From a virus, in IMG/VR virus record IMGVR_UViG_3300042309_000773, positions 1 to 26,580 of that record: a stretch of 26,580 nucleotides of DNA. The stretch is one strand, 5' to 3'. Positions 1,221-22,561 of this stretch are shown piece after piece. The notes under the pieces are model-generated. The model searched no databases. It was not told the origin of the DNA and saw only the letters and a program-made list of their open reading frames with translations. How positions within the stretch are numbered: the stretch's first letter is position 1; each line of letters opens with the position of its first letter. Position numbers and translations under genes: made by a program.

Positions 1221-1841
1221 ATGCCAGTGCCTACGCGGATTGAATTAACAGGACAACGGTTTGGCCGCTTAGAGGTCCGGTCTTACGATGGTCTTCGCGG
1301 TGGAAAAGGCTATTGGCACTGTCGCTGCGAGTGCGGCGCAGAGACTTCAATCGCGGCTCAGCTATTGCGCAATGGCAAGGCTACGAGCTGTGGATGTTAT
1401 CGCGCCGAGTTGATGAGCAAAATAAAAAGAAAACACGGAATGACTGGCACCCCCGAGTACAACGTCTATAGCTCAATGCTTGGTCGCTGTTTAAATGTAA
1501 ATAATCACAAATTTGCTCACTACGGAGGTCGCGGCATTAAAGTTTGTGACCGTTGGCGCAATTCGTTTGCCGATTTTTATGCTGACATGGGACCACGCCC
1601 CGATAGGTGCTCGCTAGACCGTATTGATGTCAATGGAGATTACACTCCAGAAAATTGCCGGTGGGCAACTCCTCAGCAGCAAGCGCAGAACACAAGAAGC
1701 AACATCAATCTCACGCATTGCGGCGAGACAAAATGCTTAACTCAGTGGGCTCGTGAACATGAAGTGCCGGTGTTGACGGCTTACTCGCGCCTGCAACGCG
1801 GCTTACCATTTGAGAAAGTGTTTGCTAGGAGGGCGTCTTGA
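1221..1841 (+). CDS. Free-standing HNH-like homing-type endonuclease inserted in tail operon
   Basis: The 206-aa protein has three visible parts. An N-terminal part carries CRCEC (34-38) and SCGC (56-59), a likely zinc-binding module. The centre carries YGGRGIKVCDRW (101-112) and LDRIDVNG..Y.PENCRWAT (132-150), a motif set typical of phage-borne homing-type endonucleases with a degenerate HNH (beta-beta-alpha-metal) site. The C-terminal part, about 165-206, has a short helical motif containing LTQW. It sits between the tape measure gene and the M-like tail gene, where lambda has no such gene, and its base composition is clearly more AT-rich than the flanking tail genes, which suggests transfer. 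A relative with the same layout lies at 21944. The catalytic activity is inferred from the motifs only. Confidence 0.82.
   Translation: MPVPTRIELTGQRFGRLEVRSYDGLRGGKGYWHCRCECGAETSIAAQLLRNGKATSCGCYRAELMSKIKRKHGMTGTPEYNVYSSMLGRCLNVNNHKFAHYGGRGIKVCDRWRNSFADFYADMGPRPDRCSLDRIDVNGDYTPENCRWATPQQQAQNTRSNINLTHCGETKCLTQWAREHEVPVLTAYSRLQRGLPFEKVFARRAS
1827..1840 (+). promoter_or_regulatory. Strong ribosome binding site and TTG start of the M-like tail gene
   Basis: AGGAGGG at 1827-1833 lies 4 bases before a TTG start codon at 1838, which overlaps the TGA stop of the endonuclease at 1839-1841. The Shine-Dalgarno sequence lies inside the last codons of the endonuclease gene. It decides the unusual TTG start, because no ATG or GTG fits the conserved N-terminus. 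Confidence 0.7.
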
Positions 1842-10020: not shown

Positions 10021-11103
10021 ATGGCCAACTCCGCGCCGATCACGCTCGAGCAGCTGTTTAGGTTCTATCGCGGGCTGCCACACCAGGCTGCTGCCATCCA
10101 GCAGCTGGAGCAGGATCTAGCGGTGAACGGCTACGCAGCAGCAATGCGGCGCGATCGGGCATGGTTCAACACTTGGAGCCAAGACGGCAAGCAGGCTGAC
10201 CTCAGTGCTGCGCTCAAGCTCATCCAGGAGTTCGAGGGCTGCCACCTCGATGCCTACCCCGATCCGCTCAGCGGTGGCGCACCGTGGACGATCGGCTGGG
10301 GCACCACGCGCTACAGCGACGGCCGGCCGGTGCAGAAAGGTGATCGGATCAACCGCGTCGAGGCCGACATGCTGCTGCGGCAGGAAGTCGATCGCATCGC
10401 CACCAAGCTCCGCACCACCATCCCCTACTGGGTGGAGATGACCGATGCGCAGAAGTCTGCGCTGATCAGCTTCGCCTACAACCTCGGCTCTGGGTTCTAC
10501 GGCAGCAAGGGCTTCGAGACCATCAGCAAGCGGCTACGCGAGAAGGACTGGGCGCTGGTGCCCGATGCCCTGCTGCTCTACCGCAACCCCGGCACCAACG
10601 TGGAGGCCGGCCTGAAGCGGCGCCGGATTGCAGAAGGTGACCTATGGGGCCGTGAGCGGCAGACCAGCGGACCGATCTCCGCGATGTTCACGCCGGAGTC
10701 ACCCTTCAGCTTTAAGGTCACCCCTCACATCACCTACGGGGAGTTTGCGCTGAACCAGGAGGCCCGGCGCTTCGATCACCAGCACCAGTGCGACACCGCG
10801 CTGAAGCTGGCGCAGTTCCTCGAGAAGGCCAGAGCAGCGTTCGGTGGCCGCCCCGTGGTCATCACCAGCGGCTACCGCAATGCTGCAGTAAACCGCTCTG
10901 TAGGAGGTGCTAGCAATAGCGAGCATCTTTACTCCGACATTGGCGTAGGTGCCGTTGACTGGTACATCGACGGAGTGGACATCTACCAGCTGCAGGACTG
11001 GTGCATCAAGAACTGGCCGTTCAGCACTGGAAGAGGCGCGCCTCGCGGATTTATTCACACGGGGATCAGAAAAGGATCACCGCGGGTGGTTTGGGATTAT
11101 TAA
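10021..11103 (+). CDS. Two-domain endolysin: GH24 lysozyme fused to M15 peptidase
   Basis: The 360-aa protein combines two cell-wall hydrolases. Residues about 60-215 are a T4/P22-type lysozyme (GH24): catalytic E72 in EFEGCHLDAYPD, D81, and T90 in WTIGWGTT; it also has FAYNLGSG (151-158) and the RRIAEGDLW end. Residues about 232-360 are an M15A-type zinc peptidase: TSGYRNAAVN (282-291), H302 and D313 in SEHLYSDIGVGAVDW, and H346 in GFIHTGI. It would cut glycan strands and peptide cross-links. No signal peptide is visible, so release by a holin is expected, matching the small membrane genes just upstream. The first 58 residues are of unknown function. Its end overlaps the minus-strand HNH gene by four bases. 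Confidence 0.92.
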   Translation: MANSAPITLEQLFRFYRGLPHQAAAIQQLEQDLAVNGYAAAMRRDRAWFNTWSQDGKQADLSAALKLIQEFEGCHLDAYPDPLSGGAPWTIGWGTTRYSDGRPVQKGDRINRVEADMLLRQEVDRIATKLRTTIPYWVEMTDAQKSALISFAYNLGSGFYGSKGFETISKRLREKDWALVPDALLLYRNPGTNVEAGLKRRRIAEGDLWGRERQTSGPISAMFTPESPFSFKVTPHITYGEFALNQEARRFDHQHQCDTALKLAQFLEKARAAFGGRPVVITSGYRNAAVNRSVGGASNSEHLYSDIGVGAVDWYIDGVDIYQLQDWCIKNWPFSTGRGAPRGFIHTGIRKGSPRVVWDY

Positions 11104-11603
11104 ATGTGCGCCCAACGCTTTCGCGCCCTGATCATTGAGACCAGCGACTGAGACACCTCAAACTGCTCGGCAATGGCAGCCTGACCGCCTGAGGCTGCTC
11201 TGATCAGTTGAACATCGTGCTCAGTCAGTTTGGCGTTGCCGTGCATTTCTCCTTGAGTAAAAGTGCCGTGACGCCGCCTGTCGCTGTCGTTTTCGCTCGG
11301 CGTTCCCCAAACCAGATTTGCCAGCCTTGAGTCCGTACGGTTGCCATTGAGATGTCGGCATTCATGGCCGGCTTGCCGCGGTCCAACAAACGCCGTCAGA
11401 ACCAGCGTGTGAACCGTGAATGTCTTGCGTTTGCCGTTGTGCTTCAAGTCAACTGCTGGATACCCTTGAGCGTTGACTGGCGTCTTGCGAATGCAGGCTG
11501 CCTTCCTTGCGGTGCGCAGGCTCCTGACCCGGCCCTGATTTGACACTTCGTAAAGCCCTTCGTAGCCGACAACGGGCTTCCACACCTCTACGCTGGTGGT
11601 CAT
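11100..11603 (-). CDS. NUMOD4-HNH homing endonuclease with helix-turn-helix tail
   Basis: The 167-aa protein (ATG at 11603) is a three-part homing endonuclease. NUMOD4 is WKPVVGYEGLYEVSNQGRVRS (8-28; two pieces of one motif). An HNH_3 domain follows at about 60-112, with H65, H80/H84, N86 and NLVWGTPSEND. The C-terminal helix-turn-helix (125-167, KLTEHDVQLIR ... SQSLVSMIRARKRW) is typical of DNA target recognition. An in-frame GTG at 11627 is an alternative start. It points against the surrounding late genes, lies between endolysin and dCTP-deaminase genes, and is more AT-rich than both, all consistent with a mobile gene. The helix-turn-helix resembles the separate protein at 14417. Confidence 0.9.
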   Translation of the reverse strand: MTTSVEVWKPVVGYEGLYEVSNQGRVRSLRTARKAACIRKTPVNAQGYPAVDLKHNGKRKTFTVHTLVLTAFVGPRQAGHECRHLNGNRTDSRLANLVWGTPSENDSDRRRHGTFTQGEMHGNAKLTEHDVQLIRAASGGQAAIAEQFEVSQSLVSMIRARKRWAHI

Positions 11604-11679
11604 CGCCTGGGATCTGCAGGTGGTCACGCTCCAGGGGCGGCAACCCGCTGGGGCACCCCAATCCTACTGCGCGCGATCT

Positions 11680-12195
11680 GTGCCGCTTCCTGATTACGAC
11701 ATCCACGAGCTGTGCAAGCGCCACGCGATGGTGGTGCCCTTCGACCCCGACCTGGTGAACCCGGCCAGCATCGACGTGCTGCTGGGCGATCGGCTGATGA
11801 TCGAGGTGCCCGATCGGCCTGAGCTGCAGATCCACGGCATCAGCAGCCACACCGCAGAGGATCCGTACCTGCTGCAGCCGGGGGAGTTCTGCCTGGCGGA
11901 GACCCGCGAGATCCTCAACATCCCGGATTTCGTGGCAGCTCAGTTTGTGCTGAAGTCCAGCCGCGCGCGCGAGGGCCTCGAGCACCTGCTGGCCGGCTGG
12001 ATCGACCCTGGGTTCCATAACAGCCGCCTGACGCTGGAGCTGAGCAACGCGCGCCGGATGCACCCGGTGGCGATCTGGCCAGGTATGAAGATCGGCCAGC
12101 TGGTGTTCCACAAGATGGAAGGCATCCCCGGCCGCAGCTACGCCGTCACCGGCCGCTACAACGGCGACCTGGGCGTAACCGCCAGCAAGGGCTAA
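11680..12195 (+). CDS. dCTP deaminase-like nucleotide enzyme
   Basis: The 171-aa protein belongs to the dCTP deaminase/dUTPase superfamily, which supplies dUMP for dTTP synthesis. NPASIDVLLGD (residues about 27-37), FVLKSSRAREGLEH and GWIDPGFHNSRLTLELSNA are the family landmarks. The Glu of LTLELSN corresponds to the catalytic Glu of dCTP deaminases, and the Ser-Ser...Arg segment corresponds to the substrate loop. I chose GTG at 11680 (PLPDYDIHELCKRH) because the conserved part begins there; the frame stays open to an ATG at 11596 that would lie inside the endonuclease gene on the other strand. Deaminase rather than dUTPase is the better guess. A terminator follows at 12225. Confidence 0.85.
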   Translation: MPLPDYDIHELCKRHAMVVPFDPDLVNPASIDVLLGDRLMIEVPDRPELQIHGISSHTAEDPYLLQPGEFCLAETREILNIPDFVAAQFVLKSSRAREGLEHLLAGWIDPGFHNSRLTLELSNARRMHPVAIWPGMKIGQLVFHKMEGIPGRSYAVTGRYNGDLGVTASKG

Positions 12196-12224
12196 GCTGA
12201 GCCCGGAGCGTCTTGTGGAGACGG

Positions 12225-12254
12225 AGCCCCGGCTTAGCCAGCTGGGGCTTTTAT
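12225..12254 (+). terminator. Intrinsic terminator behind the late/dCTP deaminase genes
   Basis: AGCCCCGGCT (12225-12234) can pair with AGCTGGGGCT (12240-12249), ten pairs including one G-T wobble, around the 5-base loop TAGCC. It is followed by TTTAT. It lies 30 bases after the dCTP-deaminase stop. A second, outer pairing of GGCTAAGC (12190-12197) with GCTTAGCC (12232-12239) could compete with it. Confidence 0.75.
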
Positions 12255-12312
12255 CTGCGCAGCCACCAGTGCGGCAGCAGCGGCTGGGGCGGCCTGCTGC
12301 GCCGTTCGCGCA

Positions 12313-12504
12313 CTATTCGCGCACCATCGGGTGCTGCAGCTTCGCCATGCGCAGCCGGTGGATCCGGCCCGGCGCTTCGGCTGGATCATCGAGCGGGATC
12401 AGGGTGAAGTCATCGCAGCCGTGGCTCTCGGCAAAGTGCTGCGCCGAGATGTGGGTGGGGAACGGCCCGACGTGCCACGGGCCGATGCGGAGGATGTATT
12501 GCAT
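12313..12504 (-). CDS. 63-aa hypothetical protein
   Basis: The protein begins MQYILRIGPWHVGPFPTHI and has a compact alpha/beta-like pattern with SAQHFAESHGCDD in the middle. I do not recognise a named family, although the style resembles small cyanophage proteins. It lies downstream of the 81-aa gene on the same strand with a 39-base gap. That gap holds a perfect 7-bp inverted repeat, GGGCCGC..GCGGCCC, at 12518-12535. The ribosome binding site is weak. Overlapping frames on the plus strand have low-complexity composition and are less convincing. Confidence 0.55.
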   Translation of the reverse strand: MQYILRIGPWHVGPFPTHISAQHFAESHGCDDFTLIPLDDPAEAPGRIHRLRMAKLQHPMVRE

Positions 12505-12517
12505 GGTGGTGAGAGTA

Positions 12518-12535
12518 GGGCCGCAGAAGCGGCCC
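12518..12535. repeat. Perfect 7-bp inverted repeat between two small minus-strand genes
   Basis: GGGCCGC (12518-12524), loop AGAA, GCGGCCC (12529-12535). It has no T-run on either side, so it is more likely an mRNA stability or translation-control hairpin than a full terminator. It lies just before the start of the 63-aa gene on the minus strand. Confidence 0.5.
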
Positions 12536-12543
12536 GGTAGGGG

Positions 12544-12789
12544 TCAGCGCCCGAGGCACCGGATGGCGGGCTGCTCAGAGACCCAGCCGCCTTCTTCGCC
12601 GGCGTTGGGCAGCGCTGTTGTAGGCAGCTGGCGCACCCAGACCATGCCGGTCTGAGGCTCGCGGTGACCCTCGATCACCTCAGCCCACATCACGGCACCG
12701 GGGAACCAGTCAGCCATGTGGGGCATGTCCACCCAGACCTTCTGGCCGATGTCGAGAGCCTGGCCGGCTTGATCGAGAATCTGAAGCAT
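12544..12789 (-). CDS. 81-aa hypothetical protein
   Basis: The ATG at 12789 is preceded by GGAGGA at optimal distance, which is why I prefer it to the longer frame opening at 12864. The protein starts MLQILDQAGQALDIGQKVWV and contains ADWFPGAVMWAEVIEGHREP and GMVWVRQLP, a beta-rich pattern like a small SH3-type barrel. No catalytic motif is seen and I do not recognise a named family. A candidate promoter lies just upstream (12815-12827). It would be co-transcribed with the 63-aa gene. Confidence 0.65.
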   Translation of the reverse strand: MLQILDQAGQALDIGQKVWVDMPHMADWFPGAVMWAEVIEGHREPQTGMVWVRQLPTTALPNAGEEGGWVSEQPAIRCLGR

Positions 12790-12814
12790 GGCGTCCTCCG
12801 CCTGAACTGAAAGA

Positions 12815-12875
12815 ACTATACACCGCCCACGGGGCACCCTGCCCCTGAGCGCCGACCCGTTCACAATCCGTCACA
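12815..12875 (-). promoter_or_regulatory. Candidate early promoter and operator region (minus strand)
   Basis: Read on the minus strand, GGCGGTG is followed directly by TATAGT (12820-12815), a good -10 element, 26 bases before the 81-aa gene's ATG. Upstream are the hairpin-like GGGGCA-CCC-TGCCCC (12831-12845) and two TCACA boxes exactly ten bases apart (12861-12865 and 12871-12875). No clear -35 is visible. The GGCGGTG-TA signature recurs in the promoter region of the long minus operon at 17394. Confidence 0.45.
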
Positions 12876-12925
12876 GTGGCTGTTCCTGTTCCTCTCGCTA
12901 CCGTGGCACCAGCGGCGGCCAGCCC

Positions 12926-13111
12926 ATGCGGGCGTTCTACCTAGAGATCTCCGCCAAGCTCATCATCCGATCCGACACCGACCCCGACGAACTGCCAGCG
13001 GACATCTACGCCCACCTGGCTGAGTTCATCCGATCCGATGAGGACATCATCGACATCGAGGTGAACGCCATCCCCCTCCCGCCGGACCTCTGTGGATCAG
13101 CACCACATTGA
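12926..13111 (+). CDS. 61-aa hypothetical acidic protein
   Basis: The protein begins MRAFYLEISAKLIIRSDTD and contains IYAHLAEFIRSDEDIIDIEV, an acidic alpha/beta pattern without catalytic residues. I recall similar small proteins in cyanophages, but no function is known to me. It is read divergently from the 81-aa minus gene, from a 136-base gap that must hold promoters in both directions. Its end overlaps the start of the HNH gene by 20 bases, suggesting co-translation. Confidence 0.6.
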   Translation: MRAFYLEISAKLIIRSDTDPDELPADIYAHLAEFIRSDEDIIDIEVNAIPLPPDLCGSAPH

Positions 13112-13409
13112 TGAGACCCGCCTGGTCACCCGGCGATCGGCCCGTGACCAGATCCACCTCGCATGGAACTACCGCTGCGCCTACTGCGGGGATCAGCTGG
13201 GCCGCAGCCCCACGCTCGACCATGTGGTGCCCAAGGTTCACGGCGGCCTCACCGTGCGCGAGAACCTGGTCTCCTGCTGCCTAATGTGCAACAGCCAGAA
13301 GGGTCACAAGGAGTGGATCAGCTGGTATCGCCAGCAGCCCTTCTGGTCTGCAATGGGTGAATGGGCGATCGCACAGTGGCTGGCCAGCGGAGCTAATCTG
13401 TCGGCCTAG
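13092..13409 (+). CDS. HNH endonuclease (classic zinc-stabilised type)
   Basis: The 105-aa protein is a compact HNH nuclease. CAYC (29-32) and CCLMC (62-66) hold the structural zinc, D43-H44 is the metal/catalytic pair, N58 is the central Asn, and N67 follows the last cysteine. The C-terminal WYRQQPFW motif is one I recall from cyanophage HNH proteins. The start is GTG at 13092, overlapping the preceding gene. It could be a homing enzyme or one that helps degrade host DNA; unlike the endonucleases at 1221, 11100 and 21944 it matches its surroundings in GC content. Its target is unknown. Confidence 0.88.
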   Translation: MDQHHIDETRLVTRRSARDQIHLAWNYRCAYCGDQLGRSPTLDHVVPKVHGGLTVRENLVSCCLMCNSQKGHKEWISWYRQQPFWSAMGEWAIAQWLASGANLSA

Positions 13410-13453
13410 ACCTTTTGAGGGACTAGGCGATCCAGTAGCAGCCGGCTGCGGGG

Positions 13454-13483
13454 AAAAAGGCGGACACCGCGTGAGGATCCGCC
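13454..13483 (-). terminator. Intrinsic terminator of the long minus-strand operon
   Basis: On the minus strand GGCGGA (13483-13478) pairs with TCCGCC (13464-13459) and is followed directly by TTTTT (13458-13454). It lies 12 bases after the last minus-strand stop (13495), in the gap between converging genes. It gives a clear 3' end for the sixteen-gene operon. Confidence 0.75.
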
Positions 13484-13494
13484 ACCGGCTACCC

Positions 13495-13665
13495 CTATCG
13501 CCCCAGCAGGTGGTCGAGGTACAGCTCCGCCTGCCACATGTCGCTGGAATACCTGCAGATGCCACCCACGCAGCTGCGGTAGTAGACCTCACCCTTCACG
13601 GGCATGATCGTCTCGATGCTGCCGCCATCGCGCTCGTAGCGGCTGATCACCTCAGGTCCGAACAT
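13495..13665 (-). CDS. 56-aa hypothetical protein, last gene of early operon
   Basis: The protein starts MFGPEVISRYERDGGSIETI and ends LYLDHLLGR. It holds CVGGICRYSSDMW, with a Cys pair that could bind metal or form a disulfide. The ATG at 13665 overlaps the preceding stop by 14 bases; a TTG at 13686 is a longer alternative. The C-terminal YLDHLLGR pattern is echoed in the DUF3310-like protein at 14199 (YLDRLLGK). No family is recognised. A terminator follows. Confidence 0.6.
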   Translation of the reverse strand: MFGPEVISRYERDGGSIETIMPVKGEVYYRSCVGGICRYSSDMWQAELYLDHLLGR

Positions 13666-13975
13666 ACAGATCACACCTGGCCGCAAAACGGCCGCCGCTT
13701 CTCTTTGATTCTGGCAACTCGTAGCCGCAGCGCTGGTGGTTCATCTCCCAGAAGCGGCAATCCCAACACATCGGCGGGCTACCAGCTGGCCGCAGCTGCA
13801 TCACCGCGGCTCGATAGATCGACTGCGCACGCAGTAGGGCATCCTGCAGGTGGACCGTGCCGGTGTCGGTCTCGATCTGTAGCTCGGGCTTTGGACCGAG
13901 CACCACGCGCGCGTGCCAGTTTCGATCGGAGCGGCTGCACACCAGCAGCAGACGGCCGGCGTACAGGCTAATCAC
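13652..13975 (-). CDS. 107-aa protein with C-terminal Cys cluster
   Basis: The protein begins at GTG 13975, whose GTGA overlaps the previous stop. The N-terminal half is beta-rich (ISLYAGRLLLVCSR and NWHARVVLGPKPELQI). The C-terminal half contains CWDCRFWEMNHQRCGYELPE and, after a basic stretch, RCDLY: four cysteines spaced C-x2-C-x9-C-x18-C (approximately) that look like a zinc site. I recall similar C-terminal motifs in cyanophage proteins of unknown function. It lies near the end of the overlapping operon. Confidence 0.68.
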   Translation of the reverse strand: MISLYAGRLLLVCSRSDRNWHARVVLGPKPELQIETDTGTVHLQDALLRAQSIYRAAVMQLRPAGSPPMCWDCRFWEMNHQRCGYELPESKRSGGRFAARCDLYVRT

Positions 13976-14202
13976 TCCTCCTCCCCGTAACTTGGCTGAT
14001 GGAAGATCCGCTCGAGCGTCATGCTGGCCGGCTCAGGCTCGCCGCCGGTGACGTGTGCCGCCACCGGATCAGCTGGGTTGGCCGCCACAAACACGGTCGG
14101 CCAGAGGTGCTCCTTCACCACAACCAGGCTGGTGCGAGGGCTACGCACCAAGATGCGGAGCGCTAGGCGCTCGAGCAAGTTCAGTCCTGGCAGGTGCATC
14201 AT
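13972..14202 (-). CDS. 76-aa hypothetical protein
   Basis: The protein starts MMHLPGLNLLERLALRILVR and continues PRTSLVVVKEHLWPTVFVA, an N-terminal helix and hydrophobic strands, then an acidic end (SYGEEE). CTGGAG lies just before the start and ATG-14202 overlaps the previous stop in ATGA. A start three bases later is also possible. No motif of known function is seen. Small proteins of this kind recur in cyanophages in my memory. Confidence 0.65.
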   Translation of the reverse strand: MMHLPGLNLLERLALRILVRSPRTSLVVVKEHLWPTVFVAANPADPVAAHVTGGEPEPASMTLERIFHQPSYGEEE

Positions 14203-14420
14203 GGCTCCAGTTTGCCGAGCAGACGGTCGAGATACCACCTCGCTTTAGCAGCGTTCACAGCAGGCTCGCCTTTATCCCACATCCTGAGGATGTAGCGCAA
14301 GACATGCCCCTGACAGTTGCCAAGCACTGGATCGGGTGCGCGCGCAATCGCGGCCTCGATCACGTCGATCGCTTCGGCTGGGCCGTAGCGGTAGTGGGCC
14401 GGGTTGATCTGGTCAGTCAT
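14199..14420 (-). CDS. DUF3310-like protein
   Basis: The 73-aa protein (ATG 14420, overlapping the previous stop) has the DUF3310 pattern: INPAHYRYGPAEAIDVIEAA at the start, then LGNCQGHVLRYILRMWDKG and KARWYLDRLLGK. Family members are common in phages, often beside nucleotide or replication genes, and their biochemical role is not settled. The helical NxxxYIxR..KG motif is intact. The gene is coupled on both sides by ATGA overlaps. Confidence 0.82.
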   Translation of the reverse strand: MTDQINPAHYRYGPAEAIDVIEAAIARAPDPVLGNCQGHVLRYILRMWDKGEPAVNAAKARWYLDRLLGKLEP

Positions 14421-14707
14421 TCCACCCATGCCCATTGCTTGCGGTTGCAGATGCGCCACATCTGCTTGGCGCTCATCCCATAGCGAACAGCAAGCTGCTC
14501 ATAGGTCAGACCGTCTGCGCGCATCTTGCGCATCTGGCGCACATCGTGAGGTGTAAGCACTGCCACAGGGTTGGATTCTCCGGTTTTGAACTGGCCGCTG
14601 GTCGGTCTGCTTAAAGCACGCTTGGCCGACGCCAGAAATGGATCATCGGCAGGAACATGCTCAGCCAGCCGCTCGACCAGCTCGATCGCCAAGGCGTAGT
14701 GGTTCAT
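14417..14707 (-). CDS. Small helix-turn-helix protein resembling the tail of homing endonucleases
   Basis: The 96-aa protein has an N-terminal helix (MNHYALAIELVERLAEHV) and a C-terminal helix-turn-helix (about 50-96) reading LTPHDVRQMRKMRADGLTYE and then LAVRYGMSAKQMWRICNRKQW. The second part lines up with the C-terminal DNA-binding tail of the NUMOD4/HNH endonuclease at 11100 (LTEHDVQLIR ... SQSLVSMIRARKRWA). No nuclease domain is present. It is probably a DNA-binding regulator. ATG 14707 overlaps the preceding stop; a GTG at 14713 is an alternative. Confidence 0.72.
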   Translation of the reverse strand: MNHYALAIELVERLAEHVPADDPFLASAKRALSRPTSGQFKTGESNPVAVLTPHDVRQMRKMRADGLTYEQLAVRYGMSAKQMWRICNRKQWAWVE

Positions 14708-14970
14708 CGCCACTTATCTCCCAGCAGCTGCTGACGGCACACCTCAATGGCCTGCTGCGCCTGCTTCGCGCTGAACACCGACTCGGTGACATCCATCGCG
14801 CGCACCACGCGCGCCAGCAGCTCGGGGTAGCTGGTGTCGCGGAAGTTAGCGGCGATGTCGCGGCAAAACTCCTCCCACAGCCCGGTGTAGGTGCCGCAAG
14901 TGCGGCCGCTGTGCGCATAGAGGCTGTCCATCATGTCGGCGCGCTGCTGGTCGAGCTGGTGAGGCTTCAT
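14704..14970 (-). CDS. 88-aa hypothetical helical protein
   Basis: The protein starts MKPHQLDQQRADMMDSLYAH and contains TCGTYTGLWEEFCRDIA, then SAKQAQQAIEVCRQQLLGDK. It is mainly helical and charged, with three cysteines (two of them in the TCG...EEFC stretch) and no membrane segment. I recognise no family of known function. It is coupled to both neighbours by ATGA overlaps, which supports its reality. Confidence 0.65.
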   Translation of the reverse strand: MKPHQLDQQRADMMDSLYAHSGRTCGTYTGLWEEFCRDIAANFRDTSYPELLARVVRAMDVTESVFSAKQAQQAIEVCRQQLLGDKWR

Positions 14971-16563: not shown

Positions 16564-16942
16564 CAAGCTGCTCCAGTGCGCGGCGGATGGTGTCCCAGTC
16601 CTTGGGTGACGGCCGCCAGCCGTCTTCGTGCTGCTCAACGAGCGACAGCGCCTGTTCCTTCAAGCTCGGCGGCTTGGGGCGGCGGGCAGCACGGAGTTCT
16701 GCTGCGCGGAACGGCCCACGCAAGTTCTTGATTCCGTCGTACCACTCGGGATCCGTAAGTTGTCTGCAACACGCCGCCAGCTCTTGGTCTGCGCCCCATT
16801 GGGCGGCTTGAGTAGCGATGTCTTGCAGCTTGGTGGTAGTAACAGTCACCATTACGCACGGAGACAACGCGGAAAACTCGGGCGCTTCTCGCCACTGCTG
16901 CACCAGCTCAGTCGGCGGTGGGGTGATGGGATGCTCAGTCAT
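16556..16942 (-). CDS. PITPPP/PPSLKEQAL family protein, copy 2
   Basis: The 128-aa paralogue of the protein at 15548 begins MTEHPITPPPTELVQQW and has AAQWGADQELAACCRQLTD, ARRPKPPSLKEQALSLVEQ and a longer C-terminal helix. A Tyr/Lys-rich insert (WYDGIKNLRGPFRAAE) and an extra strand (CVMVTVTTTK) distinguish it from copy 1. Function unknown. It overlaps its neighbours by 8 bases at both ends. Confidence 0.75.
   Translation of the reverse strand: MTEHPITPPPTELVQQWREAPEFSALSPCVMVTVTTTKLQDIATQAAQWGADQELAACCRQLTDPEWYDGIKNLRGPFRAAELRAARRPKPPSLKEQALSLVEQHEDGWRPSPKDWDTIRRALEQLDD
16646..16685. repeat. 40-bp near-identical direct repeat, copy 2
   Basis: This is the partner of 15635-15674, inside the second paralogous gene. 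The two copies lie in the same orientation about 1.01 kb apart, so recombination between them would delete four small genes and fuse the two paralogues in frame. Confidence 0.85.
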
Positions 16943-17066
16943 GCCGCACCACCTGCTGCGTGCCGGAGTGGGTGGGGCTGTGATGTGCGCCGGATTCGAT
17001 GCCGATCATGGCGAACACGGCTGCGGCGATCAGCAGGCAGATGGCGTTGTTGATGCGGTTGATCAT
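16935..17066 (-). CDS. 43-aa single-span membrane protein
   Basis: This very short gene (ATG 17066, TGA 16935-16937) starts MINRINNAICLLIAAAVFAM, a membrane helix or uncleaved signal anchor. It is followed by a His/Ser/Thr-rich tail, ESGAHHSPTHSGTQQVVRHD. It overlaps both neighbours (ATGA at its start, 8 bases at its end), completing the unbroken operon. Function unknown. Confidence 0.62.
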   Translation of the reverse strand: MINRINNAICLLIAAAVFAMIGIESGAHHSPTHSGTQQVVRHD

Positions 17067-17257
17067 GATGCGAGCGCCTGACGGACGCGGTAGCGGGTGA
17101 GGTTGAGACGGGTGGCGATCTGTCGCTGGCTGAGACCCGTGCGACGCAGGACGCGAACGCGGCGGCTTTCTGATGCGGTCAGCCAGTCGATCACTGCCAC
17201 TACGAACAGCAGCGGCAGGATCAGCTTCCAGATCACCAGCAGAGTGGCGGTGAGCAT
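17063..17257 (-). CDS. Membrane-anchored helix-turn-helix protein, first gene of early operon
   Basis: The 64-aa protein combines one membrane span (residues 2-25, LTATLLVIWKLILPLLFVV) with a basic linker (SESRRVRVLRRTG) and a helix-turn-helix of LuxR/sigma-region-4 style (LSQRQIATRLNLTRYRVRQA). This puts a DNA-binding fold directly under the membrane. I recall relatives in cyanophages, with no known function. There is no ribosome binding site in front of the ATG; a leader of about 135 bases precedes it after the candidate promoter at 17394. Confidence 0.72.
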   Translation of the reverse strand: MLTATLLVIWKLILPLLFVVAVIDWLTASESRRVRVLRRTGLSQRQIATRLNLTRYRVRQALAS

Positions 17258-17393
17258 GGCTGGAGTGGATGGGTGTGCCGGACCAACCGGCGGTGTGGGC
17301 TTACTCAGGCCGTGTTGGGCTCGTGGTGACGCGTCGTGTGCCCGGTTCCGCGGCGGTTGAGTTTTGCGAGTGGACCGCTCCCCTCGTGATCAA
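17258..17393 (-). promoter_or_regulatory. Long untranslated leader of the early operon
   Basis: If transcription starts near 17387, about 130 bases precede the first start codon. I see no ribosome binding site, no convincing ATG gene and only short GC-rich hairpins (CCG...CGG near the 3' end). A frame reading LAKLNRRGTGHTTRHHEPN is open here but lacks a start. The leader may act in post-transcriptional control, or hold a gene I cannot define. Confidence 0.35.
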
Positions 17394-17447
17394 ATACTAC
17401 ACCGCCGGCGGTGCACGTCACGGGCGCGTGTGACAGTTCTTCACACG
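17394..17447 (-). promoter_or_regulatory. Candidate promoter and palindromic operators of the sixteen-gene operon
   Basis: On the minus strand the -10-like TAGTAT (17399-17394) is directly preceded by GGCGGTG, as in the promoter at 12815. CACCGCCGGCGGTG (17400-17413) is a perfect 14-bp palindrome between the -10 and the usual -35 position. Further upstream CGTGTGA (17427-17433) and TCACACG (17441-17447) form a perfect inverted repeat with a 7-base spacer, like a CRP-type site but with one extra spacer base. A repressor or activator site is likely; no clear -35 is visible. Confidence 0.5.
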
Positions 17448-17674
17448 GCATTGCTGCCGACCGCCAGCTCAACAGGCACCCGCAGAACGGGCACACTCTT
17501 ATTTGTGTCCGGCGTGCGCGCCCAGCCGATCGCCACCAGACTTACCGGCAGCTCGACCGTGTACCAGACATGCCGGCAGTCCACGCACCTCCGCTGGCGG
17601 GTCACCTTGTCAGGCTGCTTCCCGTTCGTTGCGATCGCCCTGATCTCACCGCTACCGCAGCGTGGGCACTCCAT
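17441..17674 (-). CDS. Zinc-ribbon protein
   Basis: The 77-aa protein starts MECPRCGSGEIRAIA and has a second pair, RRCVDCRHVWYTVE: a C-x2-C ... C-x2-C zinc ribbon similar to the N-terminal half of NrdR-type regulators and to transcription zinc ribbons. The C-terminal part is hydrophobic and beta-rich. I prefer ATG 17674, with AGGA upstream, to GTG 17701, which would sit in the divergent promoter palindrome. It probably binds nucleic acid. It stands alone between two divergent promoters. Confidence 0.7.
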   Translation of the reverse strand: MECPRCGSGEIRAIATNGKQPDKVTRQRRCVDCRHVWYTVELPVSLVAIGWARTPDTNKSVPVLRVPVELAVGSNAV

Positions 17675-17698
17675 AGGTATCCTGAACCTGTACCCCGC

Positions 17699-17713
17699 CA
17701 CTATGGCACAGTG
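17699..17713. promoter_or_regulatory. 15-bp near-palindrome between divergent genes
   Basis: CACTATGGCACAGTG is a dyad apart from its centre and one mirrored mismatch pair. It lies 24 bases upstream of the zinc-ribbon ATG and ends exactly on the GTG start of the 67-aa plus gene. It is well placed for a regulator that controls both directions, perhaps the zinc-ribbon protein itself. Confidence 0.45.
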
Positions 17714-17914
17714 AACTTCGGTCAGTGGATGGCGGTCGAGCTATCGCCAGAGCAACAGTTCGAGATCGAAAAACAAGCCCGCACCCTGCTGGCGAGCAAG
17801 GATGCGGGCGCTATGGCTGCTGCTCTTCTTAAGCAAGCCTGCTACCAGCAGCAGCTACTGCAGCAGGCCGTTCACGAGATCGCTCGCCTCGAGTGTGAGC
17901 TGATGAAGCTCTAG
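17711..17914 (+). CDS. 67-aa conserved-looking helical protein (NFGQWMAVELSPEQ)
   Basis: The protein starts at GTG 17711 with the text NFGQWMAVELSPEQQFEIEK, which I recall as the opening of a small cyanophage/cyanobacterial protein of unknown function; ATG 17729 is a shorter alternative. The rest is helical (LLKQACYQQQLLQQAVHEI and a final Leu/Glu helix), consistent with a dimeric coiled coil. It is the only plus-strand gene between 13409 and 20575. Its stop overlaps the stop of the minus-strand 108-aa gene by four bases. Confidence 0.72.
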   Translation: MNFGQWMAVELSPEQQFEIEKQARTLLASKDAGAMAAALLKQACYQQQLLQQAVHEIARLECELMKL

Positions 17915-18237
17915 AACAGATCAGCCTCGATGATCTCGCTCACCACACCATCCATCGCCTTGGCCAGGCTCTGAGCGGCGCTCTGCGCGGTCACCGGGGG
18001 CACCCAGTCACGCGGCGGCTGCGCCACTGCGCTCACATAGGCGAGGCCCTTGCTGCTGGTCTTCTTCCAGCCGCTGATCGGCACCTGCACGCTGCCGTAC
18101 TGGTCCGGCGTCTGGCTCATCACGAACGCGCAGAAGGCGTCCAGCTCCTCGACCTTCACGTTCATCATCCCGGAGAAGTCCAGCTTGCTCTCGGGTTTGG
18201 TGCTCTTGAAGATGCTCAGGTTCAGCTTGAAGCTCAT
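17911..18237 (-). CDS. Candidate single-stranded-DNA-binding protein
   Basis: The 108-aa protein starts MSFKLNLSIFKSTKPESKLD and is beta-rich up to about residue 75 (FSGMMNVKVEELDAFCAFVM, then VQVPISGWKKTSSKGLAYVS). It ends with an acidic tail that finishes EADLF, like the acidic Phe-ending tail that SSB proteins use to recruit partners. It lies directly downstream of the regulator, annealing protein and exonuclease genes. SSB function is inferred from context, size and tail, not from a proven family match. Confidence 0.65.
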   Translation of the reverse strand: MSFKLNLSIFKSTKPESKLDFSGMMNVKVEELDAFCAFVMSQTPDQYGSVQVPISGWKKTSSKGLAYVSAVAQPPRDWVPPVTAQSAAQSLAKAMDGVVSEIIEADLF

Positions 18238-18461
18238 GGTCTCGGTTGATTGGGTGGATTGTTTGGCATCCCGCGCAGGTTCCGAAGCTCATACGCCTCG
18301 ACCTCCGCGACGGGATACAGCACGCGGCCGCCGATCTTCACAAATCGCGGCCCACGGTTCTGGCTGCGCCAGTTGTCGAGCGTGCTCAGCGTGACGACAC
18401 CACGCCACCGCTCAGCCAGCTCTCGCGGCTGGAGATAACCAGCCTCAGAAGATTTCGTCAT
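18234..18461 (-). CDS. AlpA/excisionase-type DNA-binding protein
   Basis: The 75-aa protein reads YLQPRELAERWRGVVTLSTL then DNWRSQNRGPRFVKIGGRVL and YPVAEVEAYE: the winged-helix layout of AlpA-like and excisionase-like proteins (helix-turn-helix_17 type). Such proteins regulate phage genes or steer excision. No integrase is visible in the window, so a transcriptional role is at least as likely. ATG 18461 has GGAG seven bases upstream and overlaps the annealing-protein gene by 17 bases. Confidence 0.82.
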   Translation of the reverse strand: MTKSSEAGYLQPRELAERWRGVVTLSTLDNWRSQNRGPRFVKIGGRVLYPVAEVEAYELRNLRGMPNNPPNQPRP

Positions 18462-19119
18462 CAAGCACTCCCTCCTTCTCCTCTACTGTCGCCGTCTTGG
18501 CGATCTTCTGGTTCAACTCATCGATGCTGGCCTTGACCGGCGCCTCGGTGATCGTCACCGGCTCCACGTCCAGCACCTCCTCCTGCGTCTGGATGCCCAC
18601 CAGCAGCTCCGGGATGTACAGCCGGCCCCAGAAGGCCGCCGCGCGATACCGGATCATCAGCTCGGGCATGGTCTGCCACTTGCTGCCGCTCTTGGTGGCC
18701 CAGCCTTCCTTCTTGGCCATCGCCATGCTCACGGTCGGACCTTTGAGATCCTTCCCGCTGCTCAGCTCGGTGGCCTCGCAGTAGCAGGCCATGCTGTCAC
18801 CCTCGCCCTTGATCTCATACCGCAGCGGGCTGAAGCGCCCGCAGCCGTTGATCAGGCCGATGATGAACTGGCTCGACCAGCTCGGCCGGCCGTGGATGAT
18901 GTGAAGATTTTGTACAACAACGAAGGGCGACATCCTCATCCGGTGCGCAATCTCCAAGGCGACCAGGCAGTTTGCAAAGCCTGCTTGCCCTTGGAACTGC
19001 GGCGGCACCAGCGTGGAGCTGGCAAGCGACTTGGCCATCCGTTGCGCGTCCTCAAACGCGGCAATCCCGCTGAAGGCTGAGCCGTTGGTGGTCGTGAGTG
19101 CTGTGGACTGATCAGACAT
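18445..19119 (-). CDS. RecT-like single-strand annealing protein
   Basis: The 224-aa protein (ATG 19119, SDQSTALTTTN) has the core pattern of a RecT/Bet-type annealing protein: FANCLVALEIAHRMRMSPFV, VVQNLHIIHGRPSWSSQFII, and MAKKEGWATKSGSKWQTMPE followed by LMIRYRAAAFWGRLYIPEL. It should pair complementary single strands after exonuclease resection. The C-terminus is long and acidic (VEEKEGVLDDEIF), like an SSB-interaction tail. The exonuclease lies upstream but an HNH/AP2 gene now separates the two. Annealing activity is inferred from motifs and context. Confidence 0.85.
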   Translation of the reverse strand: MSDQSTALTTTNGSAFSGIAAFEDAQRMAKSLASSTLVPPQFQGQAGFANCLVALEIAHRMRMSPFVVVQNLHIIHGRPSWSSQFIIGLINGCGRFSPLRYEIKGEGDSMACYCEATELSSGKDLKGPTVSMAMAKKEGWATKSGSKWQTMPELMIRYRAAAFWGRLYIPELLVGIQTQEEVLDVEPVTITEAPVKASIDELNQKIAKTATVEEKEGVLDDEIF

Positions 19120-19591
19120 GAGCGTATTCACCAAAGAGTTGGGTTTTGGCTGCAGCGTGCGCAGCTCTTGCCTCCTCGGCGGTGTCGAACATGCCGAGGT
19201 GAACGCAGGTGCGGTCTTTGTAGACGTAAGCCTGAAACCTGCCAGACGACTTCCGCTGGTGGATGCCGTTCGTGAACTTGTTTGCGCAGTTTTGGCTGCG
19301 GGTAGCTAGTCGCAGGTTTTCGGGGCGATTGTTGGTTTTGTCGCGGTCGATGTGGTCAACGTCGAAATCGCCAGGATCGGCACCGTTACAGATTGCCCAG
19401 ATGATGCGATGTGCCAAGAAGGACACGCCGCAAATCCTGACAGCCAGATAGCCGCCACGCATGGGTGACCCGACAGGATCGCCCGCTTTGCGGCCACCGC
19501 CAGCATTGAGCTTGCGAATTAGGGTGCCATCGCTGCGCACCGCAAACCTGCGGCGCAACTCTGTGATTGCTGGAAGCGGTTTGGCTTTCAT
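19112..19591 (-). CDS. HNH endonuclease with AP2 DNA-binding domain
   Basis: The 159-aa protein (ATG 19591) has an HNH_3 domain at about 45-105: LAHRIIWAICNG (59-70), DVDHIDRDKTNNRPENLRLA (77-96) and N101. An AP2 domain follows at about 107-155 (GIHQRKSSGRFQAYVY and LGMFDTAEEARAAHA). This is a common phage homing endonuclease layout. It lies between exonuclease and annealing-protein genes, whose pairing it interrupts, and its last codons overlap the annealing protein's start by 8 bases. It reads in the same direction, so expression of the partner genes can continue. Confidence 0.9.
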   Translation of the reverse strand: MKAKPLPAITELRRRFAVRSDGTLIRKLNAGGGRKAGDPVGSPMRGGYLAVRICGVSFLAHRIIWAICNGADPGDFDVDHIDRDKTNNRPENLRLATRSQNCANKFTNGIHQRKSSGRFQAYVYKDRTCVHLGMFDTAEEARAAHAAAKTQLFGEYAHV

Positions 19592-19593
19592 GG

Positions 19594-20472
19594 TCAGAAG
19601 GTCTCGATCTCGGTAATGGTGGGCATGGATCCATCCGGCCGCGGCCGCATCCAAGGCGGCAGGCTGATGGTCTCGATCTGGTCGCTGTAGCCCGGCCACG
19701 CATCAGCGGCTTTGCAGTCAGCCAGCTGCTGCAGATCGCGCGCTGCAGTGATCTGCCCCTGGGCGATCATCTCCGCATCGGCGGCGTAGACCGCCACGGC
19801 ATGAGGTGGCTTTTTCTCCACGCAGATGAAGATGAACTGCTCCGGTCGTTTGCCGGTGGCGCGCTCGAGGCCGTCGAGATACCAGCTGGCCTGGACGTGA
19901 TACCGCCAGTTTGCGATCGACTTCCTGAAGCCTGCCGGGCTCGCATCCTCTGTGGTTTTCAGGTCCACGATCAGGCTGCCGTCATCGGTCAGCCAATCCG
20001 GCCGGCACTTGCATTGCAGGCCCGTGGCCTCATCGTTCCACATCCAGGTGGTCTCAGCCTTGCCTGGCAACGCCAGCAGCATCGCAGCGGCAGGATGGCG
20101 AAACACCGAGTGCGCCATCGCCATCACCTGATCGGCGTCGGCCTTGCTGATCACCATGCGACCCGTGGCGGCCACGCTGAAGGCTTCCCATTCCGCCTTT
20201 CCTTGCTTGGTGCGGCGGTCAATGCCTTCCGGCGCCATCACATAACGCTGGTCCCACTGGTCCAGCTCTAAGACGTGAGTGTGCAATGCAGTGCCGATCA
20301 GCATCGCTGGCGTCGGCTCAGGCTCCACCCGGTTCGGGTCCACATAACGCGCCCAGTAGTGCAGCGGGCTGCGCGCCACCAGATCGAGGTGGCTTTTCGA
20401 TACCGCGCTGTGGCGGTGGTATTCAGCGTTCTCCAATCCCTCCCAGTCATCGGGGCTCTCAGAGCTTACCAT
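19594..20472 (-). CDS. RecE/exonuclease VIII-like PD-(D/E)XK nuclease
   Basis: The 292-aa protein (ATG 20472, with GGGAGG at 7-12 bases upstream) has the catalytic layout of RecE-type exonucleases: H64/H66 and E69 (TALHTHVLEL), E140, D159 in CKCRPDW, and D170-L-K172 in LIVDLKTTED, with downstream Gln and Tyr in YHVQASWYLDGL. It should resect double-stranded ends to give the annealing protein its substrate. The longer frame opening at 20616 lacks support. It is read divergently from the helicase gene across a 102-base gap. Confidence 0.88.
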   Translation of the reverse strand: MVSSESPDDWEGLENAEYHRHSAVSKSHLDLVARSPLHYWARYVDPNRVEPEPTPAMLIGTALHTHVLELDQWDQRYVMAPEGIDRRTKQGKAEWEAFSVAATGRMVISKADADQVMAMAHSVFRHPAAAMLLALPGKAETTWMWNDEATGLQCKCRPDWLTDDGSLIVDLKTTEDASPAGFRKSIANWRYHVQASWYLDGLERATGKRPEQFIFICVEKKPPHAVAVYAADAEMIAQGQITAARDLQQLADCKAADAWPGYSDQIETISLPPWMRPRPDGSMPTITEIETF

Positions 20473-20574
20473 TGGTTCCTCCCTTGTCACTCCTCTTCCC
20501 GCTAAGCCACTGAAATCATTTGGCTTTCCGGGCTTCGACTCGGATACCACTACGGCGATCTCGGGTCTAGTCCA
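20473..20574. promoter_or_regulatory. Divergent promoter region between recombination and replication genes
   Basis: This 102-base gap separates the exonuclease (minus) from the helicase (plus). The exonuclease ribosome binding site is at its left end. TTGGCT at 20519-20524 with GATACC 17 bases on is a weak plus-strand promoter candidate. I see no strong palindrome and no coding potential. Confidence 0.4.
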
Positions 20575-21939
20575 ATGAGTCTCACGCTCCGTCCCTACCA
20601 ACAGCGCGCTGTTCACGATCTCCGCCTCGCCTTTCGAGAAGGCGCACGCGCTCCGTTGTTCGTCATGTGCACCGGAGGAGGCAAGACAATCGTCATGGCC
20701 GAAATTCTCCGTTCACTGGCGACCCGCGGCCGCAGCGCCTTTGTCCTGGTCCACCGCCGTGAACTGATCGCCCAGACCAGCCACAAGCTGGACCTGGCCG
20801 GTGTCGAGCACGGCATCATCGCCGCTGGCCACACCGGTGCAAATGCACCGATCCAGATTGTATCTGTGCAAACGCTCGCCCGCAGGCTGGCGCACATCTC
20901 CGCCTCCCCTGATCTGATCCTTATTGATGAGGCGCACCACGCCACCGCAGGCAGCTGGGCAAGCGTGATCGGCCACTGGCCTGATGCCCTCCGCCTTGGA
21001 GTCACCGCCACCCCCGTTCGACTGGATGGTCGCGGCCTGTCAGCAGTCTTCGACCGCCTTGTTCTCGGCCCGTCTGTCGCGGACCTTGTTTTTCTGGGCT
21101 ATCTCAGCCCGGCGAGGATCTACGCGCCTCCCGTGCGTGCAGATCTGCACAGACTCGCCAAACGTGCAGGCGATTTCGCAGCGGGGGAATGCGCTGAGCG
21201 CATGGATCGCCCCACCGTCACAGGTGACGCCATCGACCATTACCGGCGCTTGGCCGCAGGGCAGCGTGCAATCGCCTTCTGCTGCACCGTTCAGCACGCA
21301 GAGCACGTTGCTGGATCGTTCCGCGCAGCCGGCATCGCCGCGGCCACGCTGCTGGGCTCATCACCAGATCGTGATCAGATCGTGAACCGCTTCGCCACCA
21401 ACGAGCTGCAGGTGCTGGTGACCGTCGATGTGGTCTCCGAAGGTTTCGACATCCCGGCCGCCAGCTGCGCCATCTTGCTCCGACCCACCGCCAGCCTCGG
21501 CCTTTACCTCCAGCAGGTTGGCCGCGTGCTCAGGCCCGCAGAGGGCAAGCAGGCAGCGGTGATCCTCGACCACGTCGGCAACGTCCACCGGCATGGCTTC
21601 CCCGATGATCCGCGCGACTGGTCGCTGGACGATCGCCTCCGCTCTGGCCGCGGTGGTGGCCAGGCAGCGCCATCAGTGCGCACCTGCCCCAGCTGCTTCG
21701 CTGCGTTCAAGCCGGCGCCAATCTGCCCATGCTGCGGCGCACACTGCGCGCCCGAGCCCAAGCGCGCCATGCGCCAGGTCGATGGCGAGCTGCAGGAGCT
21801 GAAGCGGGTCAATGCCCAGCTCCGTGCCAGCGAGCGCAAGCGTGCCCGCACCCTGCCAGAGCTGCTCGCCATCGCCGCACAGCGCGGTTACTCGCCCGGC
21901 TGGGCGTACAAGGTCCACGCTGCAAGAGCGAGAACGTAA
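20575..21939 (+). CDS. SF2 DEAD/DEAH-type helicase with C-terminal zinc ribbon
   Basis: The 454-aa protein has complete SF2 motifs: LRPYQ at 5-9 (Q-like motif), Walker A CTGGGKT (32-38), Walker B DEAH (118-121), TATP (144-147), VSEGFDIP (287-294) and QQVGRVLRP (313-321). This is the arrangement of type III restriction/UvrB-like phage helicases. A C-terminal zinc ribbon (CPSC at 371-374, CPCC at 384-387) and a basic helical tail follow, probably for DNA binding. It is the first gene of the plus-strand replication block. Direct DNA unwinding is inferred; a translocase role is possible. Confidence 0.93.
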   Translation: MSLTLRPYQQRAVHDLRLAFREGARAPLFVMCTGGGKTIVMAEILRSLATRGRSAFVLVHRRELIAQTSHKLDLAGVEHGIIAAGHTGANAPIQIVSVQTLARRLAHISASPDLILIDEAHHATAGSWASVIGHWPDALRLGVTATPVRLDGRGLSAVFDRLVLGPSVADLVFLGYLSPARIYAPPVRADLHRLAKRAGDFAAGECAERMDRPTVTGDAIDHYRRLAAGQRAIAFCCTVQHAEHVAGSFRAAGIAAATLLGSSPDRDQIVNRFATNELQVLVTVDVVSEGFDIPAASCAILLRPTASLGLYLQQVGRVLRPAEGKQAAVILDHVGNVHRHGFPDDPRDWSLDDRLRSGRGGGQAAPSVRTCPSCFAAFKPAPICPCCGAHCAPEPKRAMRQVDGELQELKRVNAQLRASERKRARTLPELLAIAAQRGYSPGWAYKVHAARART

Positions 21940-21943
21940 TAAG

Positions 21944-22561
21944 ATGGGAACAGCTGCCCCATCTTTCTTCGTGCCTAATCCAATTCCGGCTGCGCTGATC
22001 GGCCAGCGCTTTGGCCTGCTTACCGTGGTGTCCGACGCATCAAACGGCCAGCGTTACCAGATGGTGCGTTGCCAGTGCGATTGCGGAAACATCACCGTGA
22101 TCAGAAAGAGCCGTTTGCACGAGCGCAAGGGAAAGCAACTTGCCTGCGGATGCCTGCGTGGTCGGCACACCAAGCACGCTGATTCCAACAGCAAGCTGTA
22201 TAGGGTTTGGGATTCGATGGTGCGACGATGCCACAACCAAAACCATCGAGCGTTTGCTGGCTATGGCGGTAGAGGCATCACAGTGTGCGCTGAATGGCGC
22301 GACTACTGCGGTTTCAAAGCGTGGGCTGACAAAAGCGGCTACGCCGAAGGCTTGACCATCGACCGAATTGATAACGATGGCAGTTACTCCCCGGACAACT
22401 GCAGGTGGGCTACCCGCAAACAACAGCAGAACAATCGCCGCTGTTGCGTCTACATCGAGCACGACGGCAAGCGCCTGACGCTCACGCAGTGGAGTGAGTT
22501 GCTAGGCGTGCCGCGGCACACTGTGCGCAGGCATCTTGAGGCAGCGCATGTCAGCCAGTGA
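21944..22561 (+). CDS. Free-standing HNH-like homing-type endonuclease, relative of the gene at 1221
   Basis: The 205-aa protein (ATG 21944) has CQCDCG and ACGC zinc-type clusters in the first third, then YGGRGITVCAEW and IDRIDNDG..Y.PDNCRWAT in the middle, and a C-terminal LTLTQWSELLGVPRHTVRRH helix-turn-helix. The order and spacing match the protein at 1221, with similarity mainly in the central motif. It sits between helicase and VRR-NUC genes and has a different codon feel, somewhat more AT-rich, from its neighbours. Its last codons overlap the start of the VRR-NUC gene. Nuclease activity is inferred. Confidence 0.82.
   Translation: MGTAAPSFFVPNPIPAALIGQRFGLLTVVSDASNGQRYQMVRCQCDCGNITVIRKSRLHERKGKQLACGCLRGRHTKHADSNSKLYRVWDSMVRRCHNQNHRAFAGYGGRGITVCAEWRDYCGFKAWADKSGYAEGLTIDRIDNDGSYSPDNCRWATRKQQQNNRRCCVYIEHDGKRLTLTQWSELLGVPRHTVRRHLEAAHVSQ

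Follow-up and report, generated by a model that had tools for sequence, protein, structure and literature searches.

A helix-turn-helix module common to the tail of a viral NUMOD4/HNH protein and a small protein resident in an operon slot

Homing-endonuclease genes have been reported to take part in domain shuffling with other genes, and in the same paper CapR, from the PLE satellites of Vibrio cholerae, is described as a stand-alone repressor whose zinc-finger DNA-binding domain is common to T5orf172 homing endonucleases (PMC10448857). Two other reports describe I-TevI as repressing its own expression (PMC3943268) and WhiA as a regulator with kinship to homing endonucleases (PMC3781837). Here we analyze positions 1 to 26,580 of the IMG/VR virus record IMGVR_UViG_3300042309_000773, a stretch of 26,580 bases (the window) that is probably a fragment of a virus genome. 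Its minus strand carries, 3 kb apart, genes for a NUMOD4/HNH protein of 175 residues (the HNH protein) and for a protein of 96 residues (the small protein; Table 1). An initial annotation had proposed that both end in a related helix-turn-helix (HTH), and that this domain had moved from a mobile nuclease into the phage's own regulation, or the reverse. We conclude that the two tails are one module family, that the small gene is a resident of its position in an operon, and that the HNH gene behaves as a mobile insert.

The letters on which the proposed kinship was based, LT-x-HDV-x-x-x-R, A-x-x-(F/Y)-x-x-S and K-x-WA, are indeed present in both proteins and in the same order. A linker in front of the HTH, GE-x-N-x-x-A-x-LT, had been overlooked and is also common to both tails. 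By BLASTP the two proteins share 19 of 58 residues (33%, E 9e-5). Comparison of a profile of the 12-member small-protein family with that of a 40-member HNH family gave a match probability of 98.7% and an E value of 3.4e-16 over 63 columns, equivalent to residues 34-96 of the small protein and including the linker (GE-N-x-x-A-x-LT). With a hidden Markov model (HMM) built only from the 40 HNH tails, the small protein reached 52.1 bits and its 12-member family ranged over 46.5-58.2 bits; the best score among shuffled controls was 10.7 bits (4592 scored of 5000 shuffles). Among window open reading frames (ORFs) of at least 40 residues, the sole two matches of this model at E 1e-4 were the HNH protein and the small protein. 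Rather than assigning the tails to different HTH families, the PHROGs search placed an HNH family (phrog_20467, 1.8e-8) and an endonuclease family (phrog_6156, 2.7e-7) at the top for the small protein, each of them matching all 12 family members; families of late transcriptional activators (3.1e-5) and DNA invertases (0.006) came lower. Searching with tblastn gave matches in 71 of 50,697 phage records, and the 60 listed carry mostly HNH or endonuclease labels. Edwardsiella phage eiAU gp54 was considered as a full-length relative (27% by tblastn over 94%) and dropped, its tail-HMM score being only 19 bits.

In the AlphaFold2 model of the small protein (mean predicted local distance difference test, pLDDT, 79) the HTH comprises three helices, at residues 53-64, 69-76 and 80-88, and the same order of helices is predicted for the HNH tail (136-144, 149-156 and 160-167; block pLDDT 97-98 in a model with a mean of 94). 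The residues of the recognition helix differ between the two. In front of its HTH the small protein does have the extra segment that had been proposed, although as two predicted helices, 3-15 and 23-33, instead of one. This hairpin (block pLDDT 78-91 over residues 1-30) found no match when 44 residues were searched by tblastn up to E 1 in the 50,697 phage records. As the initial annotation had stated, no nuclease domain is found in the small protein by Pfam or NCBIfam searches; its matches to nuclease PHROGs are confined to linker and HTH, residues 29-95. NUMOD1-3 matched neither the HNH tail nor the small protein (Pfam, E up to 1). By Foldseek the small-protein HTH resembles Hin with a probability of 0.85, and a BFVD search gave no match with E < 0.001.

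Within its operon the small gene is resident in the slot before a DUF3310 gene. It starts with ATG, the ORF list also offering a GTG two codons upstream, and it has ATGA overlaps at both ends, with the stop of the 88-residue gene upstream and with the ATG of the DUF3310 gene downstream. It is therefore the middle gene of a tightly packed minus-strand operon. In the window and in seven relatives (G001-G007; in G002 the 88-residue gene was not recognized at the slot) this position holds the hairpin-bearing form, which we call SMALL and which is 55-73% identical between the window and its orthologues. In four further records (G018, G019, G021 and G022) it holds a hairpin-less form of 64-67 residues, MID, with a similar HTH (42-47% identical). 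A more divergent form of about 64-71 residues, SHORT, occupies the slot in G012, G014 (where the gene ends at the record edge) and G017, and in most of the 39 loci found with SHORT; neighbors differ in a minority of these (for example L192-L199), yet DUF3310-like genes stay near. None of the 39 SHORT loci has a nuclease joined to SHORT. Selection acts at the protein level: in four close pairs the whole-gene nonsynonymous and synonymous divergences (dN/dS) were 0.11/0.49, 0.04/0.36, 0.01/0.14 and 0.03/0.27, ratios of 0.07-0.22, implying a maintained gene. Because hairpin-less relatives are also kept, the bare module suffices for a maintained gene.

The HNH protein exceeds the Pfam cut-offs for NUMOD4 (E 4.6e-12), which covers its N-terminal part, and for HNH_3 (E 4.2e-10), and its tail has no Pfam family over threshold; in Foldseek its sole match under E 0.001 was I-HmuI (E 5.3e-9). 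Of 17 relatives, nine (G008-G015 and G017) carry a gene of this type between lysozyme and dCTP deaminase, and in four (G001, G003, G005 and G007) the junction is empty, with at most a few tens of bases; the other four (G002, G004, G006 and G016) lack the junction in their record or have another gene order. The small gene is present in all four relatives with the empty junction. Upstream of the HNH start, some 60 bases are kept in seven of eight aligned HNH-bearing relatives, the exception being G016, and this DNA probably belongs to the mobile unit. Because the gene is present or missing at one junction and has linked 5' DNA, it behaves as a mobile insert, and its domains together with this insertion polymorphism point to a free-standing NUMOD4/HNH homing-type endonuclease. 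In a second set of 14 records, seven have a relative of the HNH gene and seven have none; all 14 have a small-protein profile match, at least one of which (G027) lies in the HNH tail itself.

Some details of individual relatives may be recorded here. The HNH gene of G008 is identical to that of the window, and the same relative has a second, different HNH gene with a similar tail after dCTP deaminase (L126:4711-5214, 167 residues). In G017 an in-frame internal deletion makes the HNH core run straight into the middle portion of the HTH tail (L135:7989-8375, 128 residues). One TGA lies inside the dCTP deaminase match of G009 (C1:439-1029).

The module is also found far beyond this phage lineage. 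It terminates HNH proteins of many phages, as judged from a Pfam scan of matched phage genes. It ends a GIY-YIG protein (PF01541; L150:1108-1662) with a weak NUMOD3 match in a 642-kb uncultured phage record, as well as a tyrosine integrase (Phage_integrase, PF00589) of Burkholderia phage AH2. In cyanophage S-EIVl it accompanies an NrdR-like zinc ribbon whose match is below cut-off, and in Mycobacterium phage Bactobuster gp46 it looks as if it follows a coiled coil. Stand-alone copies occur in the Arthrobacter phages Brent (gp34) and Jinkies (gp42) and in one Rhodobacteraceae phage. A module with HNH, GIY-YIG, integrase, zinc-ribbon or no partners is a shuffled one. Among 6263 distinct ORFs in the collected sequences the tail profile matched 120. 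A local profile detected an HNH domain in 65 of these, and another 36 have fewer than 60 residues ahead of the module; the remaining 19 include some HNH proteins missed by the local profile and some slot genes with an overlong reading frame. Although the module is common, no Pfam model fits it well among the members scanned; some members pass the HTH_7 cut-off. In literature searches on the module, no listed title or abstract opening presented it as a family. Tail similarity is a misleading guide to annotation, as conflicting labels for Brent gp34 illustrate: it is an "endonuclease" in RefSeq (NC_041930.1) and a "helix-turn-helix DNA binding domain protein" in GenBank (KT365401.1).

To place the two tails among other modules we built trees. 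Of 103 sequences given to the tail HMM, 100 had a match; 14 fell under 25 bits and were excluded, eiAU gp54 and Sagefire gp47 among them, and two duplicates were removed, leaving 84 rows in which the window HNH tail is represented by the identical L010. For later trees 8 and then 12 long-branch, cut or odd rows were omitted by hand. In the 84-module tree SMALL formed one clade (support 99/86) and SHORT joined an HNH tail (96/98); at least two changes of the label "HNH" are required, on the starred branches. Without the 12 rows, SMALL and MID formed one clade (100/98) and SHORT stood beside the HNH tail L041 (97/92). The sister of SMALL was Brent gp34 in the 84-row tree (95/85, a long branch, later omitted), a jumbo-phage GIY-YIG tail without 8 rows (97/75), and phiGT1, Vib1147 and L069 without 12 rows (57/80); with three different sisters across the trees, this position is unstable. 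In the best trees both slot HTH types nest separately among nuclease tails, a pattern suggesting that the slot gene has two distinct connections with such tails.

In approximately unbiased (AU) tests the following constraints were not rejected: one clade of all stand-alone forms (p 0.103), of SMALL and SHORT (p 0.31), of all slot forms, SMALL, MID and SHORT (p 0.433), and of SMALL with the window HNH tail, alone (p 0.471) or with the hairpin-less form included (p 0.427). A common clade with the local HNH tail, the phylogenetic sign of exchange anticipated by the initial annotation, is thus neither shown nor rejected. Because no alternative tried was rejected, the trees neither show nor exclude exchange, and the direction from nuclease tail to stand-alone gene is one that we infer.

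Taken together, these results make it likely that the small protein is an operon DNA-binding protein built on a shuffled nuclease-tail HTH module, and that the HNH gene is a separate insert. The C-terminal 50 residues of the small protein are a Hin/Tc3-like HTH of an unnamed, widely shuffled family that phage nucleases, mostly of the NUMOD4/HNH homing type, bear as a putative DNA-addressing tail. The N-terminal hairpin most likely forms a dimer, which would have two HTH heads facing the DNA. The small protein would most likely act without cutting, as a putative sequence-specific transcription regulator or DNA organizer. The HNH gene 3 kb away has its own version of the module, and both tails descend from one module family with no sign that either gene gave rise to the other. 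More tentatively, an unusually mobile module may repeatedly have been freed from nucleases as stand-alone regulators, the slot in this phage group having taken the SMALL/MID and SHORT tails at different times and one lineage having then gained a dimerizing hairpin.

Several observations weigh against this reading. Several Pfam HTH families matched the small protein weakly and none above cut-off; HTH_7 (PF02796), for instance, scored 14.0 bits under a cut-off of 23.8. The small-protein HTH aligned with Tc3 transposase, IstA, sigma region 4 and Hin (VIA-align Z 5.7-5.9 over 43-49 residues, root-mean-square deviation, rmsd, 2.1-3.1), and Z scores of 5-6 are usual among HTH folds and single out no family. 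The trees comprise 55 columns and are midpoint rooted, and the AU tests discriminate among none of the alternatives. The collected sequences were seeded with HNH genes and are no census, so nesting among nuclease tails is biased. Finally, ThyX fills the slot in G010 (L128:3652-4197; Thy1 E 1.2e-39) and G011, and other genes fill it in G008, G013 and G015; the small protein is therefore not an essential core regulator.

A directional version that overlaps with our preferred reading is that the stand-alone genes are former HNH or other nuclease genes that lost their nuclease. We regard this as possible but doubtful. The nesting of stand-alone types among nuclease tails in the best trees fits it, as does the deletion allele of G017, and the place beside RecT or ERF is taken by an HNH gene in phiGT1, Vibrio 1.147 and BrutonGaster and by a stand-alone HTH gene in Brent and Jinkies. 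However, the hairpin is unlike HNH and the profile match begins only at residue 34, no intermediate with a partial HNH was found among 14 SMALL and 39 SHORT loci, and a single stand-alone clade was not rejected.

A recent exchange within this phage lineage, in which the small-gene HTH was copied from the HNH gene or the reverse, is improbable. Both genes lie in one genome with module and linker in common, and the trees tolerate a clade of SMALL with the HNH tail. Nevertheless, the small protein is much closer to its orthologues, four of them with an empty HNH site, than to the HNH protein, and the recognition helices differ. The nearest tails in the trees, weakly supported, are nuclease tails of other phages, those of phiGT1, Vib1147 and L069 or that of the jumbo phage. 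What stands of the proposed domain exchange is therefore a single shuffled module family; a transfer from one of the two genes to the other within this phage is unsupported. That the tails converged on a widespread HTH consensus and have no special relationship is very improbable: the fold is common and generic families match weakly, but the linker and a closing W-x-(H/W)-(V/I), both outside the HTH core, are shared at the E value of the profile comparison, and nuclease PHROGs outscore generic HTH PHROGs. That the stand-alone tail is an anti-homing shield, occupying homing sites and blocking cleavage, is scarcely credible, since the window carries both genes and the differing recognition helices make the same target unlikely, even though four relatives with an empty junction have the small gene.

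Table 1. Coordinates of the features discussed, all on the minus strand of the window
Feature	Coordinates	Strand	Basis
Stand-alone HTH protein, 96 aa	14417..14707 (stop included)	-	ORF; 12-member family; low dN/dS
N-terminal helical hairpin (residues 3-33), confined to SMALL clade	14609..14701	-	AlphaFold2; missing from slot homologues
Low-confidence linker (residues 34-46), contains GESN	14570..14608	-	pLDDT <50 at 38-45
HTH module of small protein (residues 47-96)	14420..14569	-	HNH-tail HMM 52.1 bits; predicted helices; fold matches
Free-standing NUMOD4/HNH_3 endonuclease gene, 175 aa	11100..11627	-	Pfam; I-HmuI match; empty junctions in relatives
C-terminal HTH tail of HNH protein (residues 125-175)	11103..11255	-	Tail HMM 71.6 bits (the model's 40 sequences include this tail); predicted helices
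DNA 5' of HNH gene, mobile-unit candidate	11628..11690	-	Conserved with HNH gene, not seen where the junction has no HNH gene
Upstream operon gene, 88 aa, left slot border	14704..14970	-	No Pfam match; conserved beside slot in relatives
DUF3310 gene, right slot border	14199..14420	-	PF11753 E 1.4e-10

Elsewhere in the window are further HNH-type or look-alike genes, at 1221-1841 (+), 13092-13409 (+), 19112-19699 (-) and 21944-22561 (+). The second matches PF01844 HNH (E 7.3e-10), and the naming of the other three comes from sequence only. Megablast of window DNA (25 kb) against the phage collection gave nothing beyond one 122-bp match, none of 345 matches in a contig pattern scan was a relative, and Rfam and tRNA searches of the window found none. 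A hunt for operators by repeats over 16900-20700 gave two short direct-repeat pairs and two long-range inverted pairs, which are not convincing.

The solved structure closest to the HNH protein is that of I-HmuI (1u3e; profile E 1.7e-27), although the C-terminal part of I-HmuI aligns poorly with the window HNH tail. The HTH of Hin recombinase and resolvases (PF02796) resembles that of the small protein in fold (VIA-align Z 5.7 over 46 residues, rmsd 3.1), but the small protein has no recombinase domain and is below the HTH_7 cut-off. Brent gp34, Jinkies gp42 and the "transcriptional regulator" of the Rhodobacteraceae phage are likewise stand-alone copies of the module, of 77-92 residues, but they have no such hairpin and have other neighbors (RecT/SSB in the Arthrobacter phages). 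Like the putative regulator described here, I-TevI and WhiA are presented as homing-endonuclease-related proteins acting on transcription; however, I-TevI retains its nuclease, and the endonuclease type to which WhiA is linked is a different one. The AP2 domains of plant regulators are an analogous case.

The closest published case is CapR, also a stand-alone protein with the DNA-binding domain of phage homing endonucleases. CapR has a zinc finger, CxxC...CxC, whereas the small protein, whose only cysteine is residue 87, carries an HTH, and its role as a regulator is putative. The kind is thus already known, and what is new in detail, within the literature searched, is the module, its slot and the variant with a hairpin. 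Overall, the small protein adds an HTH-based case to the zinc-finger CapR, a second instance of DNA-binding parts of homing endonucleases in stand-alone phage proteins, and its slot is a natural experiment in which the same operon position occurs with the hairpin, without it, or without an HTH gene.

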